From positions 24,339-88,338 of IMG/VR virus record IMGVR_UViG_3300020404_000180: a stretch of 64,000 nucleotides of DNA. One strand, written 5' to 3'. This stretch comes from a virus. The notes under the pieces are model-generated. The model searched no databases. It had not been told where the DNA came from and worked only from the letters and a program-made list of their open reading frames with translations. Of the stretch, positions 24,301-46,548 are shown in pieces. The position numbers and the translations under genes are program-made. Each line of letters begins with the position of its first letter. Position 1 is the first letter of the stretch.

Positions 24301-27300
24301 ATAAGTGAAGACGTTAAATGGGTTAACGTTCTCTACTGCTGATGCATATGGTTGGTCAATAAGAACCTCTGATGTGTAAGGCAGTGTTATGATGTCATCT
24401 GTCTGTTGTACATTCTGTGACGCTGTACTATATGATAGAGGGACTTGTGTTGTGTAGTGTGCTGGTCTTAAATAACCTTCTTCAAAATCTGTAGATACTC
24501 TGTAATCAGGATGTAATGTATCTGCAGTAGCAAGACTTGCAAAGTTATCAACTATAAAACCATTTTTGAATCTGCTAAGACCACTAGTGTCTCTAATCTC
24601 CATGCTTGCTGTCTCGCCTTCAAGCAATGATAGTTGTGTATAGTATTCTAATGTCTTAATTCTATCTTCTAGATATTGGATATCACGGAAGGTATATCTC
24701 TTGTAATTTGTCTCCTCAATACTGACATCTTGTTCTACATCAAAAACGTATGCATTATATGTCAAGGTAGCAAGTAGCATTGCATCCTCAATATCTTCTG
24801 GAGCTTGAGGTCTAGTAGATGGAGCACCCTTTACTATTTGTATAACGCTATCTCTACTCATAAAGATTTTATCAATACGAGGTAGGTAGTATTGTAGACT
24901 AAGAATAGTGCTATCACCAAGACCAGGCAATCCAGTTTCGTTTCCTGTAAATGCTCTGTTGTTAAAATCAAAATACTTAGTTCCACTAAGTGTAAATGGT
25001 GATGCTTGAGAACCAGAACCTGTCAATGACTCAGGAACTATTGGTCTATAGTCAATTACATCTCTAAGTTCTACGTTAGTGTAAGATGGTATAATTTTAT
25101 ACTCTGATGTAGGGTATGAGTCTACTGTATAAGGACTTGTACCATTAGTTGTAAGGAATCTATCGAAGATAACAATTATCTTATGTGTAGGAGGAGCGAA
25201 TCCTGCTTTTCTTACAATTCTAGAATAATCATAGAACTGGTCTCTCTGACCATCATCTAAATCAAATGAACTTGTTATATCTGTAGAACCTTTTGTAATA
25301 CCACCAGTAGAAATCTTTAATGTTGCATTAGGTGCAGTGATTGTCTCACCTTCTGTAAACTGGTCATCTTCTATGGGTACGAAATACACATAGTTACTTG
25401 TAGTAGAAACTATCCTTGCTCTAGAACCAGAACTGTCACCTGTGATGACGTCATCTATTGCTAGAGTTCCAAGTAAGTTTGTGTATTGGAAATTAGGAAT
25501 GATTGGGTCATTGCTATCCTTAGACTCATAGATTGCCTTAATTTTAAATACATCACCAGTTCCTAGTGAGATAGAAGTGTCATCTACTCTAGTACCAAAA
25601 CCACCAGCAACAGTAGTTAAACCATTTACAGCACTACCTGTAGTGTCATCTATTTTAAGAACCTTCATGCGTTCTGTGGTCTTTGCTTTTGCTGACCTAT
25701 CAGATGAGTAGACTGTACCAATAATTGTTATGGTGTCAGAACCACCTGTATTAGAAAGTCCTGTTAGTGCAATGGTCTGTGTATTTGCACTTGTACCACT
25801 TATACTAAAACCATTACCAGATGATAGTACATCTCCATCTCCAGAACCAGATGTAATGATAACTTGGAAGTCATCGTTATCTGCACCGTTCTTCCATAGT
25901 AATCCAGCACCAGCATTTGCAGATGCTTCACCACTACCATTAACAGTTGTGTTTACACTGATTCTAAAGAATCCTGCAGGATTCTGTGTGTTGTTATTAT
26001 TTGTATTCTTAACAGCATTGAAACCAAGAGGAGTTATTAATCTCTTCTTGTTTGCTTCTTTGAGTTCTGGACGTGTTCTAATAACAGGACTTGTAAGTGC
26101 ACCGTTAGCAATGTTGTTTGATGTTAGAGATGCAATTGTAAAACTAAAGTTATTAGTTACTGCAGTAATCGTTGCTTTGTGTACTAAGTCATTGTTTGAG
26201 AATTCTATGATGTCTCCTATTCTCAATTGAGACGCAAAGTTAGACAACGTAGATGTGATTGTTCCTGTAGCACTTGTACCAGTTCCTGATACACCACTAA
26301 GAATAGGACCTGAGCCAGGCAATGCTACCTTAACATCTAATACAGCATCTGCTGTACCACCAGTTCCAAATGCATATGATTTTACATCACCGAAACCATA
26401 TTTTCTTACACCACCCGAAGCCACCGTAGCAAATGTACTACCGCTTGCATTGTTTGTTTTTAGAACCTCTCCTGCAACAAACTCTCCATTGGTTTCGTAG
26501 AGATATCCAGTAGTACCACTACCGCTTACAACAAAACCTACAGCACCAGATGTTGCACCGAATAGTAAGTTACCCGCTGTCCATGTGACACTTCCTGTTG
26601 TAACAATTTTTACATAGAATTGTGTATCTATGATATTGGTACGATATAATGTAGTCTGATTATTAAGTGCACCAGATTCGTAAGTAAAGTTGATTGCTCT
26701 TGTCACACCAATAACATTACCAGCAGCAACGCCAGGTGTAGATGTCAATGTATCTCTAAGTTCAACTGTCTCATACATCGTAGGTGCTTGATGCTGATTA
26801 GTTGTAAATATAAAGTTACCAAAGTCTGATGTTAGAGACTGATTTGATTGTGTATCAAATGTACGTGGTTTGTCTACGTCTGTATAAGTTGTAGATAATC
26901 TTTCAGTTCTATATCCTTGAACGTAAGCACAACCAGATGATAGTTGTACAGACATGTTCTCCTCTGATGGAGCAACACCACTTGATGTTAATTCTGTAGA
27001 TGCATAGACACCGTTATTGAATCCGTCGTCTAAGTTTTCTCTAGCATCAACTTTAAATTTCTTGACGTAGTAGTTACCAGATTCTTCTTTTGTTCTGGTT
27101 GCAAGTATATCATTAATAAAACTAAGGTCACTACGTTCAACCCTCTTCTCAATATTACCAATGTTAGTTCTAAGAAGTTCTATAAAGTCAGCAGAGTTAG
27201 GTGCTGTTAATATCTTCTTGACTAATGTAAGATTAATCTTAAACCTGTCTGCACCTGGTGCAGAGAAGTTTGTACTACCGATTGCGTTATCATATAGAGT

Positions 27301-42129: not shown

Positions 42130-43986
42130 TTAATACTTATAGCTAGATTCTGGTATCACTCCTGTACCAGAAAGATTTGAACCACTGCTGATAGTGTCTT
42201 CTACAACACTTACAGTTGTATTATCTATACCTAGTGTCAAATAAGTTTCACGGAGAGAAATAAGGTCATTTGACTTTGGCGTTGCAGAAATTTGTAGTGT
42301 ATTATTTGCTACACTAGTAGATTGTATAATAAGGTCATTAATTACGATGTCACCCATATCGTAGTCTACAGTTCCCCATAGTCCATCAACATATTCAAAC
42401 TCACCAGTACCTTTGACATAGTAGAGTCTAAGTGTACCCGCACCATCGTCATTTAGGTAGTAAGTATTGATGTCATCACCCACGATCTTAAAACCAGACG
42501 AAGAAACTGAAGGTTCTTTCGATGATCCTGTATTAATTCTGTTTCCATAACATATGTTGTAGTTGACACGAGCGTTTAATTCGATAGGAACGTTCTTTCT
42601 CATGGTGACACGAGTAATGTTCGAGGTAATTGAGTTTTCTGCGTTGTCAATTACGCTCTGCACCTTGGAGAACTTGAACTTACCGCCAAATTTATTGAAC
42701 TCTGCACTTTGATTTAGTGCAGTTAATGCAGTAATCACAATATTCTTGATTTCTGACTGGTCACGACGTGTAATATTGGGATTATAATACACAAATGACA
42801 CCAAATCGATGAAAAGAATGCTTGGATCAATGATTGTTGGTTGAATTGCTGCCACAGAGAAGTCTCTTAACTTCTTAAGTATGGCATTTTTCTCTGAAAG
42901 AGATAATTTATCAGCATTTTTTGGTTTGATTGCCAAAAATACCTTACCATATTGCGGTGGTGACGCTTCTTCACCTCCATAACATGATATAGAACCGATG
43001 TTAGAGTAGATTTGCGGTACAATTGCTTCATAATCACGTGTACTAACCGCTCTACCGAACGCAGAATAGAATTTTGGTGCACCAAACTTGATAGATTCAG
43101 TGCTTTCCTCTGCTGCACCTCCGTCTGGGAACGCAACTACGGTAATTGTGATGCCAGAAGTGATAGCATTTAGGTTATTATCTCTAAATGTACCAATATT
43201 TTCAAAAACTTTTAGTCCGTTTGCTCCAGTTCCTGATGAAGTTGTGTATTTTACCTCTACAACATCACCATTTGCAAGGTCTTTACCAATAATTCCGTCA
43301 CCAAATAACACTTCGGGTACAGAATACTCAGATTCTTCTAAGAAATACACCTTAGAGGTTGCATCTATCTTGGTAATATCGGTTGCTTGCAAATATTTTT
43401 CTGTAATTGTACCACTTGTGACCTGTACAATCATAGATGAGGTGTCTGCCTTCTCGTTTGTAAGTATAAATCTCTGTCTTTGATTGATATTTCTTACAAA
43501 AGTATCAGTCAAGAACAAACCTTCAGACAAAACTATGTTAGAAAACGTTGCGATACCTGTTAAACTGTCTACAGAAACGGTTGTATCAGTCGGAAGAGAG
43601 AAAACAAAGTTGTTATTGTCCAATCCTGTGAAGTTTAGAACCAATCCTGCTGCCATTGTAACAGTAGTAGGGTATGGAAACGTTGTCTGAACTGCAATAT
43701 TGACTGTTGTAGTTGCACTTCTAGCACTTTTTGGAGTGTAACCAAGCATTCTTGCTAATTTTACGACGTTTTCTCGTAAAACTGCTGTCTCTAGGAACCC
43801 TTCGTTGACTGCAAGGTTCGCATTTACACTTGTATAGTAAGTATTATATGCAAGAGTGTCCAAAAGCACCGTCAAAGACGACCCTTCAAAGTCATAATCA
43901 CTAAATTGTGACTGTGATTTTAAGTATGCTTTAATTTGTGCCTTGATTTCGTTAAATTCAAGAGCATTAACTTGGTTAAATGCCAT
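42130..43986 (-). CDS. 6: Baseplate wedge protein gp6 (618 aa)
   Basis: Residues 1-110 (FNEIKAQIKAYLKSQSQFSDYDFEGSSLTVLLDTLAYNTYY, NEGFLETAVLRENVVKLARMLGYTP) are the conserved N-terminus of T4 gp6, a baseplate-J-type protein. gp6 dimers form the continuous ring that ties the wedges around the hub. Later motifs include FPDGGAAEESTESIKFGAPKFYSAFGRAVSTRDYEAI, the J-like core. The length is close to T4 gp6 (660). It overlaps the gp25 stop by one base and ends three bases before the gp7-like gene, so gp25-gp6-gp7 form one translational unit. Confidence 0.93.
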   Translation of the reverse strand: MAFNQVNALEFNEIKAQIKAYLKSQSQFSDYDFEGSSLTVLLDTLAYNTYYTSVNANLAVNEGFLETAVLRENVVKLARMLGYTPKSARSATTTVNIAVQTTFPYPTTVTMAAGLVLNFTGLDNNNFVFSLPTDTTVSVDSLTGIATFSNIVLSEGLFLTDTFVRNINQRQRFILTNEKADTSSMIVQVTSGTITEKYLQATDITKIDATSKVYFLEESEYSVPEVLFGDGIIGKDLANGDVVEVKYTTSSGTGANGLKVFENIGTFRDNNLNAITSGITITVVAFPDGGAAEESTESIKFGAPKFYSAFGRAVSTRDYEAIVPQIYSNIGSISCYGGEEASPPQYGKVFLAIKPKNADKLSLSEKNAILKKLRDFSVAAIQPTIIDPSILFIDLVSFVYYNPNITRRDQSEIKNIVITALTALNQSAEFNKFGGKFKFSKVQSVIDNAENSITSNITRVTMRKNVPIELNARVNYNICYGNRINTGSSKEPSVSSSGFKIVGDDINTYYLNDDGAGTLRLYYVKGTGEFEYVDGLWGTVDYDMGDIVINDLIIQSTSVANNTLQISATPKSNDLISLRETYLTLGIDNTTVSVVEDTISSGSNLSGTGVIPESSYKY

Positions 43987-44375
43987 TACGGTTTAAATGC
44001 AATTCTAATATCATCGAATTTAGGAGTCAATCCTAGTATAATGTATGAAACACGAACGTCTAATTGATTACGATCCTCTTCCCAATTTGCATCTACCTCA
44101 TAGACCGCAACTCTGGGTTCATGTATTTCAATAGCTTCAGTAATACGTACTTCGATTTCTGTTGCTAAACTGTCTGTGTAATTCTCAAATAACAAACCAA
44201 TGATGTTCCCACCAAAAGCAGGGTCAAATGGTTTCTCATAAAAGTTGTATAATACTATATTTTTTACTGCTGCTTTTATTGCAGCTTCATTCTTCAGAGA
44301 CAAGACATCGTTTGTCACTGCATTCTTCTCAAAAGTTAAACTAAAGTCACGGAATGACTTCGATGTCAACGCCAT
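43986..44375 (-). CDS. 25: Baseplate wedge / sheath initiator gp25 (129 aa)
   Basis: 129 residues, close to T4 gp25 (132). It has the GPW/gp25 fold signature: LLFENYTDSLATEIEVRITEAIEIHEPRVAVYEVD, with the EPR loop conserved in sheath initiators from T4 to R-pyocins and type VI secretion. It joins the wedge to the first sheath ring. A late promoter lies 27 bases upstream. The stop overlaps the gp6 start. Confidence 0.93.
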   Translation of the reverse strand: MALTSKSFRDFSLTFEKNAVTNDVLSLKNEAAIKAAVKNIVLYNFYEKPFDPAFGGNIIGLLFENYTDSLATEIEVRITEAIEIHEPRVAVYEVDANWEEDRNQLDVRVSYIILGLTPKFDDIRIAFKP

Positions 44376-44692: not shown

Positions 44693-44983
44693 TTAACCTG
44701 CAAATACGTTATCTGAACCTTCAGCGACTGATGTACACCCGCTGATACCATCACCTATTCTACCACATCCTTTGCCATTGACAAATACGGTTGTACTACC
44801 CGTTGCAATTGGTGCACTGTGGCCAGGACAAAAAGGACCTGCTGGTAAAAGGTGTCCTGTATTATTATCACCTTGGCGAGATACTCCGATACCATTCACA
44901 AATACATTATCACTACCCTGTGCTCTGGTCATTCCAGAACAATGAGTGACGTCTGCATCTCCGATACGTGTTACCGCTGGCAT
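44693..44983 (-). CDS. PAAR-repeat spike-tip protein, gp5.4-like (96 aa)
   Basis: Residues 1-96 carry repeated PAAR hairpins (RIGDADVTHC, GSDNVFVNGIGVSRQGD, GSTTVFVNGKGCGRIGD, GSDNVFAG) and the His/Cys pattern (H14, H44, H55, cysteines) that binds one metal ion at the cone tip. In T4, gp5.4 caps the central spike gp5 and pierces the outer membrane. A good ribosome site (GGAGAG) precedes the ATG, and the start overlaps the stop of the gene before (TAATG). Confidence 0.93.
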   Translation of the reverse strand: MPAVTRIGDADVTHCSGMTRAQGSDNVFVNGIGVSRQGDNNTGHLLPAGPFCPGHSAPIATGSTTVFVNGKGCGRIGDGISGCTSVAEGSDNVFAG

Positions 44984-45189
44984 TACTTTCTCTCCCTAGA
45001 TACTAATTCTTGTAAGTACTGTGTATACTTACTCATCTCACTATGTTGTTCGTCCGTGTGTGGCGGTTCTGGCGACACAGGAGCAAACTTAATCAAGTGG
45101 TCAAAAGCATCGGGTAAGTCACCACACCGAGTATAGGTCAGTTTCTTACCCTTGTCCTTTATTATGAATTCTCCTTCGAGATTCTCCAT
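44983..45189 (-). CDS. Small acidic/basic protein (68 aa), unknown
   Basis: MENLEGEFIIKDKGKKLTYTRCGDLPDAFDHLIKFAPVSPEPPHTDEQHSEMSKYTQYLQELVSRERK. Soluble, with a short N-terminal beta part, a Pro-rich middle and a C-terminal helix. It lies just before the PAAR gene and has a late-promoter-like TCTAAATA 16 bases upstream. The function is not recognised; a late, virion-assembly-related role is inferred from position. Confidence 0.7.
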   Translation of the reverse strand: MENLEGEFIIKDKGKKLTYTRCGDLPDAFDHLIKFAPVSPEPPHTDEQHSEMSKYTQYLQELVSRERK

Positions 45190-45236: not shown

Positions 45237-45488
45237 TTAGGACTCTAAGTCTCCAACCTTATATTCTATAATTTCTTGAATACATGCTTCGTGGTCACAT
45301 ACCACGTCCACAAGTCTCTCGTAGTGACCGTCAGGGGTTCGTTTCATCATTAACTTAGAATCGTTAACCTTGGTCTCTAGTTCGTTAAGTTTATCTGTGA
45401 GCATGTCTATTGCTTTCCACGCTGCAGATTGTCTCATAATTAACTCTTCATATTTCCTATCAACATGAGTGTGGTAATCACCTGACAT
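45237..45488 (-). CDS. Small coiled-coil protein (83 aa), unknown
   Basis: The central helix (KAIDMLTDKLNELETKVNDSKLMM) has heptad spacing. A C-terminal part with His/Cys (VVCDHEACIQEIIEYKVGDLES) follows. Its start overlaps the end of the preceding gene by 11 bases. No family recognised. It is the last gene before the late virion operon and is read from the sigma70-type promoter at 45726-45754. Confidence 0.7.
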   Translation of the reverse strand: MSGDYHTHVDRKYEELIMRQSAAWKAIDMLTDKLNELETKVNDSKLMMKRTPDGHYERLVDVVCDHEACIQEIIEYKVGDLES

Positions 45489-45684
45489 TTAATTCCTCCT
45501 TGTTAAGGTATACTTCGTTGAGGTCGTAATTGATACGCCAATTGTCAGTGTTAACGTAGTAACCTACGATGCCTGACTCGTCTGACGTGTAACCGTAACC
45601 TCGTACCCTCTCATTTATATCACCAAGTCTAAAAGTTTTGTTGGTGTGAAGGTAAGTTCCGTATTTTTCGTCGAGACGTATCAT
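45478..45684 (-). CDS. Small protein (68 aa), unknown
   Basis: The ATG at 45684 gives MIRLDEKYGTYLHTNKTFRLGD..., with aromatic beta-strand patterns (GYTSDESGIVGYYVNTDNWRINYDLNEVYL). A TTG seven codons upstream has no better ribosome site. It is the first gene after a strong sigma70-type promoter and overlaps the next gene. Function not recognised. Confidence 0.7.
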   Translation of the reverse strand: MIRLDEKYGTYLHTNKTFRLGDINERVRGYGYTSDESGIVGYYVNTDNWRINYDLNEVYLNKEELNVR

Positions 45685-45725
45685 TTTAGGTACTAAAGAA
45701 TGCAATCTGTTTTAGTATGTATACG

Positions 45726-45754
45726 ATTCTATCAGGAAGTCAACACATTGTCAA
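45726..45754 (-). promoter_or_regulatory. Sigma70-type promoter TTGACA-17-TAGAAT
   Basis: On the minus strand TTGACA (45754-45749), a 17-base spacer, then TAGAAT (45731-45726). The -10 ends about 40 bases before the 68-residue gene. The -35 box overlaps the TGA stop of the phosphopantetheinyl transferase gene. The spacing and match indicate recognition by the host polymerase, so the two small genes that follow can be read early. Confidence 0.75.
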
Positions 45755-46203
45755 GTATAAATGTAACCAATTACATCATCTGGTAAGTTAGGTATCTCAG
45801 TCAATCTATCATAATGCTTGACAACACGTCTCCATTTATTCGGTGTAAACATGAACTCACCAACGTTATCTGCAATACGTTCTTTCTTGTACTTAGTGTA
45901 TGCTTCCTTGCAAGTCCATAACCGATAGAACCACTCCTTGTCCTTAGTAACCTCCATGTGATGAAAGTATCTCCTAGAGATTTTCTCAAAGGGACGTTCT
46001 TTCATATACTCGATGTCAATACCAACTTGTTTACTAGAGACAGCAACAACTGAGTAGGTATGTGTATCGGATTTATTCCAGTGTAACGTTACTGGTTTCT
46101 TACAGTCTAATGTGTAAGTGTCCAAGTAATCTCGAAGGGACGCTCTTACATCATCAGTAAAGTATACAGTCGTATCGACGTTTTGAAAAATGACCTGTGG
46201 CAA
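45751..46203 (-). CDS. 4'-phosphopantetheinyl transferase (Sfp-type, minimal)
   Basis: Sfp-type enzymes move the phosphopantetheine arm of coenzyme A to a serine of an acyl or peptidyl carrier protein. All core motifs are visible in the right order and spacing: VGIDIE at 60-65, with D63 and E65 as Mg ligands, and LWTCKEAYTKY at 95-105, with E100 the third ligand and K99/K104 contacting CoA. A strand SVVAVSSKQ precedes them, as in Sfp. With 150 residues it lacks most of the N-terminal half of the pseudo-dimer. The start is TTG at 46203 with no clear ribosome site; an in-frame TAA lies 11 codons upstream, so no longer form exists here. No carrier protein gene is seen in the window; the partner may be the host acyl carrier protein. 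Upstream is a 300-base structured region. Confidence 0.85.
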   Translation of the reverse strand: MPQVIFQNVDTTVYFTDDVRASLRDYLDTYTLDCKKPVTLHWNKSDTHTYSVVAVSSKQVGIDIEYMKERPFEKISRRYFHHMEVTKDKEWFYRLWTCKEAYTKYKKERIADNVGEFMFTPNKWRRVVKHYDRLTEIPNLPDDVIGYIYT

Positions 46204-46240
46204 AATTTTACGAAAAAAAATATTTTGTTTTTAGGGAACC

Positions 46241-46545
46241 TTGTATCACGTTCGCGAATGCAAGACTTTATAGCTTATCGCTATGGGACTCCTTTAAATA
46301 CGCCCCCCGCCCGCGAACTGGGTTAAGGGGACTGGCAGCAGATGTCTGACCTATCCTAACTCCTTTGCGAAGTCTAACTAAGGTCTCAGGGATGCCCGCC
46401 AGTCTTAAAGTGTGGTCTTACATCAATTGGCAATACGCGAGATGAACGCCACGGAGCATAGGATGTGGACTTATAGTAGTAGAGGTCTCCACACATAAAG
46501 GGCATGTTCCACTGGGGTCGCCCACCCTTGCCTACTACATGCCAC
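46241..46545. ncRNA. Candidate structured RNA (strand uncertain)
   Basis: No reading frame longer than 17 codons fits here, and the stretch is visibly richer in G+C than its surroundings. Compatible perfect helices form a chain of domains: 46250-46256 with 46312-46318 (enclosing 46270-46274 with 46280-46284); 46330-46336 with 46398-46404 (enclosing 46348-46352 with 46381-46385); 46412-46415 with 46449-46452 (enclosing 46421-46424 with 46441-46444); 46464-46469 with 46488-46493; 46501-46507 with 46537-46543. On the minus strand a run of eight T follows at 46220-46213, possible as a 3' end. It matches no RNA family I can recall (not tRNA, tmRNA or RNase P by core motifs). It could also be a 5' leader of the transferase gene or a DNA-level element such as an origin. 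Confidence 0.5.
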
Positions 46546-46548
46546 GCA

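Follow-up and report, generated by a model that had tools for sequence, protein, structure and literature searches.

Sfp, the surfactin synthetase-activating enzyme of Bacillus subtilis (PDB 1qr0 and 4mrt), stands for a type of 4'-phosphopantetheinyl transferase (PPTase) that is known as promiscuous. PPTases activate the carrier proteins on which fatty-acid and peptide synthesis depend. In Sfp, the histidine of the Ser-His pair (S89-H90), together with the N-terminal subdomain, helps to hold CoA. Our literature search yielded no published data on His90 of Sfp. In cyanophages, an acyl carrier protein (ACP) and "its synthetase", for which the term "ACPS" was used, were described in P-HM1 and P-HM2 by Sullivan et al, 2010 (PMC3037559), and the transferase genes of both phages are already annotated as 4'-P-pantetheinyl transferase. 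The core of the present finding, a phage PPTase with an ACP, has been known since then, so that the initial annotation of the DNA studied here was only partly right in calling such an enzyme unexpected in a T4-like phage. The literature search found no experimental work on the phage PPTase-ACP pair, and the ACP goes unmentioned in the main text of the P-HM2 transcriptome paper. What is added here to the 2010 report is the presence of the ACP in all five PPTase phages of sufficiently complete sequence.

The DNA analyzed, referred to as the window, is a stretch of 64,000 nucleotides (positions 24,339 to 88,338 of the IMG/VR record IMGVR_UViG_3300020404_000180). Its gp6 is 82-83% identical to that of P-HM1, P-HM2, and MED4-213, which are Prochlorococcus phages of Eurybiavirus, and about 42% identical to that of the next cyanophages; on this sequence comparison, the window phage is a relative of Eurybiavirus. 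The PPTase gene and the features around it are as follows.

45751-46203, minus strand: short Sfp-type PPTase, 150 aa, TTG start (Pfam, PHROG, AlphaFold/Foldseek, and orthologs)
45478-45705, minus strand: small conserved ORF, 75 aa, PHROG 6312, downstream of the PPTase gene in the same gene block
45237-45488, minus strand: small conserved ORF, 83 aa, PHROG 23214
44983-45189, minus strand: small conserved ORF, 68 aa, PHROG 24555
44693-44983, minus strand: PAAR-motif protein of the tail-spike tip type (Pfam PF05488, 35.5 bits)
43986-44375, minus strand: gp25-like baseplate wedge protein (position and synteny with P-HM2)
42130-43986, minus strand: gp6 baseplate wedge protein, 83% identical to P-HM2 gp6
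46249-46335, minus strand: wider conserved non-coding stretch, 87 nt, 76-81% nucleotide identity in P-HM1, P-HM2, and MED4-213
46252-46273, minus strand: leader/promoter-like core CTATAAAGTCTTGCATTCGCGA, 22 nt, 5' of the PPTase gene and the small-ORF/PAAR/gp25/gp6 block

The minus-strand frame at 45751-46203 is open, and the plus strand across it contains many stops. The TTG start proposed initially seems plausible, because the near-identical contig L002 likewise has TTG, and this codon is ATG in most relatives. The window PPTase matched Pfam PF01648 (ACPS) with 38.9 bits (E = 1e-9), against a gathering cut-off of 25 bits, and PHROG 23098 with an E value of 2e-42, the latter being unnamed in PHROGs. 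Two Sfp entries were the sole good matches in a PDB search with the single sequence, and a search with the family profile gave Sfp at a better E value of 8e-10. The AlphaFold model (pLDDT 89.4, pTM 0.83) had as its best solved Foldseek match the Sfp-CoA-PCP complex 4mrt (E 5e-5, TMq 0.60, TMt 0.41), below which further Sfp-type PPTases ranked, and the nearest among predicted viral proteins was the MED4-213 ortholog. In NCBIfam, PPTases of the HetI/AusB type were matched below their thresholds. The PDB profile search, Foldseek, and NCBIfam gave no hit to a model or structure of the AcpS type.

The motifs that had led to the Sfp-type assignment, VGIDIE and LWTCKEAYTK, are present as described, and D63, E65, E100, and K104 fall on D107, E109, E151, and K155 of Sfp in a phmmer alignment. 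Successive IMG/VR scans for the family yielded 22, then 58, and then 80 loci, and the motif pair, defined as the Mg-binding (V/I)G(I/V)D...E and WxxKEA..K with 25-50 residues between them, was present in 71 distinct viral proteins from all fetched loci. In an alignment of 28 sequences, G61, D63, I64, E65, W96, K99, E100, A101, and K104 were invariant, the Mg ligands and the base thus being unchanged in members of about 147-167 aa with identity to the window PPTase down to 39%. The median pairwise dN/dS of the gene was about 0.18 (84 pairs), indicating that it is under purifying selection. The gene is present in environmental contigs and in P-HM1, P-HM2, and MED4-213, where the orthologs are PHM1_077, PHM2_076, and CPMG_00044 (T4-GC500). 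The identity as an Sfp-type PPTase is backed by profile, fold, and conservation alike, and the ORF is confirmed as a real, conserved gene for a short enzyme of this type.

The window PPTase is, however, a reduced variant of the Sfp type and not a canonical Sfp enzyme. It does not have the canonical two pseudo-symmetric domains (about 220-240 aa), and the loss of most of the N-terminal half, which had been noted from its 150 residues, is reflected in the position of the catalytic Asp at residue 63, compared with 107 in Sfp and 81-175 in 28 bacterial relatives found with the same profile. The ORFs of these relatives, counted from the first possible start codon, are about 169-293 aa, all but one being at least 182 aa. 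A PPTase match was found in 195 of 242 cyanobacterial genomes, with frames of at least 203 aa among the matches listed and of 217-220 aa in several genomes of 1.6-1.8 Mb, a size typical of Prochlorococcus. An origin of the phage gene from host cyanobacteria is a possibility that was considered; the cyanobacterial enzymes match the core region only, and the roughly 80 alignable residues were too few for a PPTase tree. The pair of residues before the G-I-D strand is [S/A/T]-H in 28 of 28 bacterial relatives and Ser-Asp in nearly all phage members, the exceptions among the viral proteins being Ser-Asn in two and Ser-His in four, the latter seeming to be common bacterial-type enzymes encoded in other contigs. 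The near-invariant Ser-Asp in place of Ser-His and the loss of most of the N-terminal subdomain would fit a protein that is catalytically dead or repurposed, for example for binding CoA or ACP without transfer. The catalytic D/E/E/K/W set, however, is invariant down to about 40% identity and the dN/dS is low, and we regard such a loss of activity as very unlikely.

The gene is preceded by an intergenic gap of 345 nt (46204-46548), in which the conserved stretch consists of a GC-rich arm followed by the core, which is single-copy in the window. The core, as CTATAAAGTCTTGCATNNGCGA, is kept in environmental contigs of cyanophages, whether or not they carry the PPTase gene (L229, L254, L264, L265, L269, and L285), often behind a terminator-like C-run/G-run hairpin with a T-run, and in the PPTase-less contigs it precedes the same small ORFs. 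The adjacent structured region of the initial annotation therefore exists and is conserved in part, but it also occurs independently of the PPTase gene, and a PPTase-specific riboswitch was ruled out because the leader and the same small ORFs occur in contigs without the gene. No Rfam or tRNA/tmRNA match was obtained in the upstream region. From sequence and gene order, the core region is best read as a putative leader or promoter of the small-ORF/PAAR/gp25/gp6 block, and the PPTase gene as a probable insertion into this block in some phages. Separately, 46493-46533 and 46347-46387 (minus strand) resemble parts of Synechococcus phage S-SSM7 (90%) and Prochlorococcus phage P-TIM68 (85%) that are non-coding or have little annotation, which suggests that the intergenic region may be a mosaic of small conserved non-coding elements.

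To identify a carrier protein, related genomes were searched with PF00550. One ACP each was found in P-HM1, in P-HM2, where it is PHM2_029, and in MED4-213, and one also in the divergent contig G005 and the 200-kb contig G038; in all five phages, it lies 22.7-27.9 kb upstream of the PPTase gene on the same strand. Thus, an orthologous ACP is present in five of the five PPTase phages whose sequence reaches 22.7 kb or more upstream; a repeated ACP scan of viral contigs yielded nothing further. In the remaining PPTase contigs that were checked, the upstream sequence is shorter than 21 kb and a missing ACP is uninformative, and the 88-kb record of the window, in which no PF00550 ACP was found, cannot show one because it ends 17.8 kb upstream, before the ACP position. 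The phage ACP scored over the cut-off of the NCBIfam acyl carrier protein model, its sequence is FAS-type and close to bacterial AcpP, and it has an invariant Asp-Ser-Leu (DSL) serine with a FAS-type helix II. The structural model shows ACP-like helices, an extra N-terminal helix, and a long tail of low confidence. In a phage-isolate collection, cyanophage matches to the PPTase or the ACP occurred only in P-HM1, P-HM2, and MED4-213; acpP-like and sfp-like matches in Acinetobacter, Listeria, Staphylococcus, and faecal "phages" were set aside as they may be bacterial contigs.

In P-HM1, P-HM2, and MED4-213, the ACP gene is preceded by genes for the gp5 hub and by two small ORFs, and genes for CpeT, YadA-like, and tail-fibre proteins come after it; similar gp5-like and small ORFs precede it in G005 and G038. 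This position between hub and fibre genes, the place of the PPTase gene at the head of the PAAR-gp25-gp6-gp7 block, and the extra helix and tail of the ACP would be consistent with the ACP being a component of the virion, baseplate, or tail, or an acyl donor to one, which the PPTase primes late in infection. On the other hand, the metabolic gene cpeT shares the block of the ACP, no virion proteomics of the three isolates was found in the literature, and the P-HM2 proteins tested, which represent the scanned part of the genome, included neither a protein acyltransferase nor an enzyme of fatty-acid metabolism; a structural role of this kind seems to us quite improbable. As candidate users of the ACP, an HlyC-type toxin acyltransferase was rejected, the "toxin" gene PHM2_081 beside PAAR having no such Pfam match, and so was the small "esterase" PHM2_204, which has no Pfam match; a defence system gave no PADLOC match.

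The genes next to the ACP also provided two side observations. PHM2_030 of P-HM2 (L030:7369-7866), directly after the ACP gene, is annotated as DNA endonuclease V, likewise according to PHROGs, and its sole Pfam match is to 2OG-Fe(II) oxygenase (E 1e-5, just under the cut-off); it is possibly misannotated, and if it is indeed an oxygenase, its place next to a carrier protein would be of interest. In three non-isolate contigs (L136:387-1100, L188:2041-2778, and L340:355-1047), a protein of 230-245 aa lies just after the ACP, belonging to PHROG 17480 in the two tested and to no Pfam family, and its site is taken by the oxygenase/CpeT genes in P-HM2.

A strict one-to-one co-occurrence of PPTase and ACP was rejected, because contig G283 (IMGVR_UViG_3300020472_000017; 77.6 kb) carries an ACP at 76331-76492 and the leader element and has no PPTase at the usual site or elsewhere in its 77.6 kb. 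Therefore, a PPTase implies an ACP in our data, but an ACP may not require a PPTase; either the ACP can exist without the PPTase, or the PPTase can lie in the unsequenced remainder of this genome. G283 is a natural test of whether a host PPTase can serve the phage ACP. It also lends something to the idea that the phage PPTase acts mainly on host AcpP, keeping or raising holo-ACP and fatty-acid synthesis, with the phage ACP being additional or independent, as do the closeness of the phage ACP to AcpP and the promiscuity of Sfp-type PPTases. However, in every PPTase genome that can be viewed far enough (5/5), the phage ACP accompanies the enzyme, and a full-length PPTase is already encoded in the 195 matched cyanobacterial genomes; we consider a main action on host AcpP unlikely.

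Rather, we think it probable that the product of the gene is a reduced, active PPTase of the Sfp type that primes the phage's own apo-ACP to holo-ACP. The enzyme would move the 4'-phosphopantetheine arm of CoA onto the DSL serine of the ACP whose gene lies between those for the baseplate hub and the tail fibres, some 23-28 kb upstream, and the resulting holo-ACP would bear acyl groups during infection, with host fatty-acid synthesis as their probable loader or source. The gene, its family and fold, the invariant catalytic residues, the purifying selection, and the linkage to an ACP in each relative of sufficiently complete sequence are observed here; that the enzyme is catalytically active, that it prefers the phage ACP, and that the holo-ACP is put to use are inferred. 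The replacement of Ser-His by Ser-Asp with the mostly missing N-terminal subdomain, the ACP of G283 with no PPTase at the usual site, the distance of about 23 kb between the two genes, which do not share an operon, and the lack of a visible ACP in the truncated record of the window count against this priming of the phage ACP. Of the initial interpretation, the Sfp-type PPTase stands, but its proposals of an effect on host fatty-acid synthesis or of modification of a virion or signalling protein miss the best-supported substrate, the phage ACP, which came to light through the carrier-protein search that the initial annotation had itself suggested. In a more speculative extension, to which we give little credence, this cyanomyovirus lineage would keep a private acyl-carrier system, in which a half-length PPTase with altered CoA recognition is dedicated to the extended phage ACP and the holo-ACP is phage-specific (tail or baseplate acylation or building, or diversion of host acyl chains), possibly made from another form of CoA, such as dephospho-CoA, than that of the host enzyme.

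If the pair works as inferred, one group of ocean phages brings its own acyl carrier together with its activating enzyme, and lipid or acyl metabolism would join photosynthesis and carbon metabolism among the targets of phages. The unusually small Sfp-type PPTase would also help to determine which share of the fold CoA binding needs. The priming of the phage ACP is directly testable in culture with P-HM2 on Prochlorococcus MED4.

In comparison with known systems, the PPTases of P-HM1, P-HM2, and MED4-213 are 45-49% identical to the window PPTase over the full length (tblastn), equally short, and encoded at the same site upstream of the PAAR-gp25-gp6-gp7 block, whereas the window PPTase starts at TTG, its loop behind residue 18 is shorter, and its insertion around residues 115-130 is longer. 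Sfp, the best solved match in both fold and sequence, has the Mg ligands and the general base in common with the window PPTase but is 228 aa instead of 150 aa, the N-terminal subdomain being reduced and H90 replaced by Asp in the latter. The HetI/AusB-type PPTases represent the best NCBIfam similarity, over the catalytic core, but the scores of 38.6 bits for NF042922 (cut-off 370) and 43.2 for NF047349 (cut-off 225) are far below the thresholds of these models, which have 205-235 positions. The AcpS-type holo-ACP synthases resemble the window PPTase in their short chain and in the predicted FAS-type ACP substrate; however, they are about 120 aa with an N-terminal G-x-D motif and begin almost at G-I-D, whereas the window PPTase has about 60 residues ahead of this motif, which starts at residue 61, and is thus distinct from the AcpS type.
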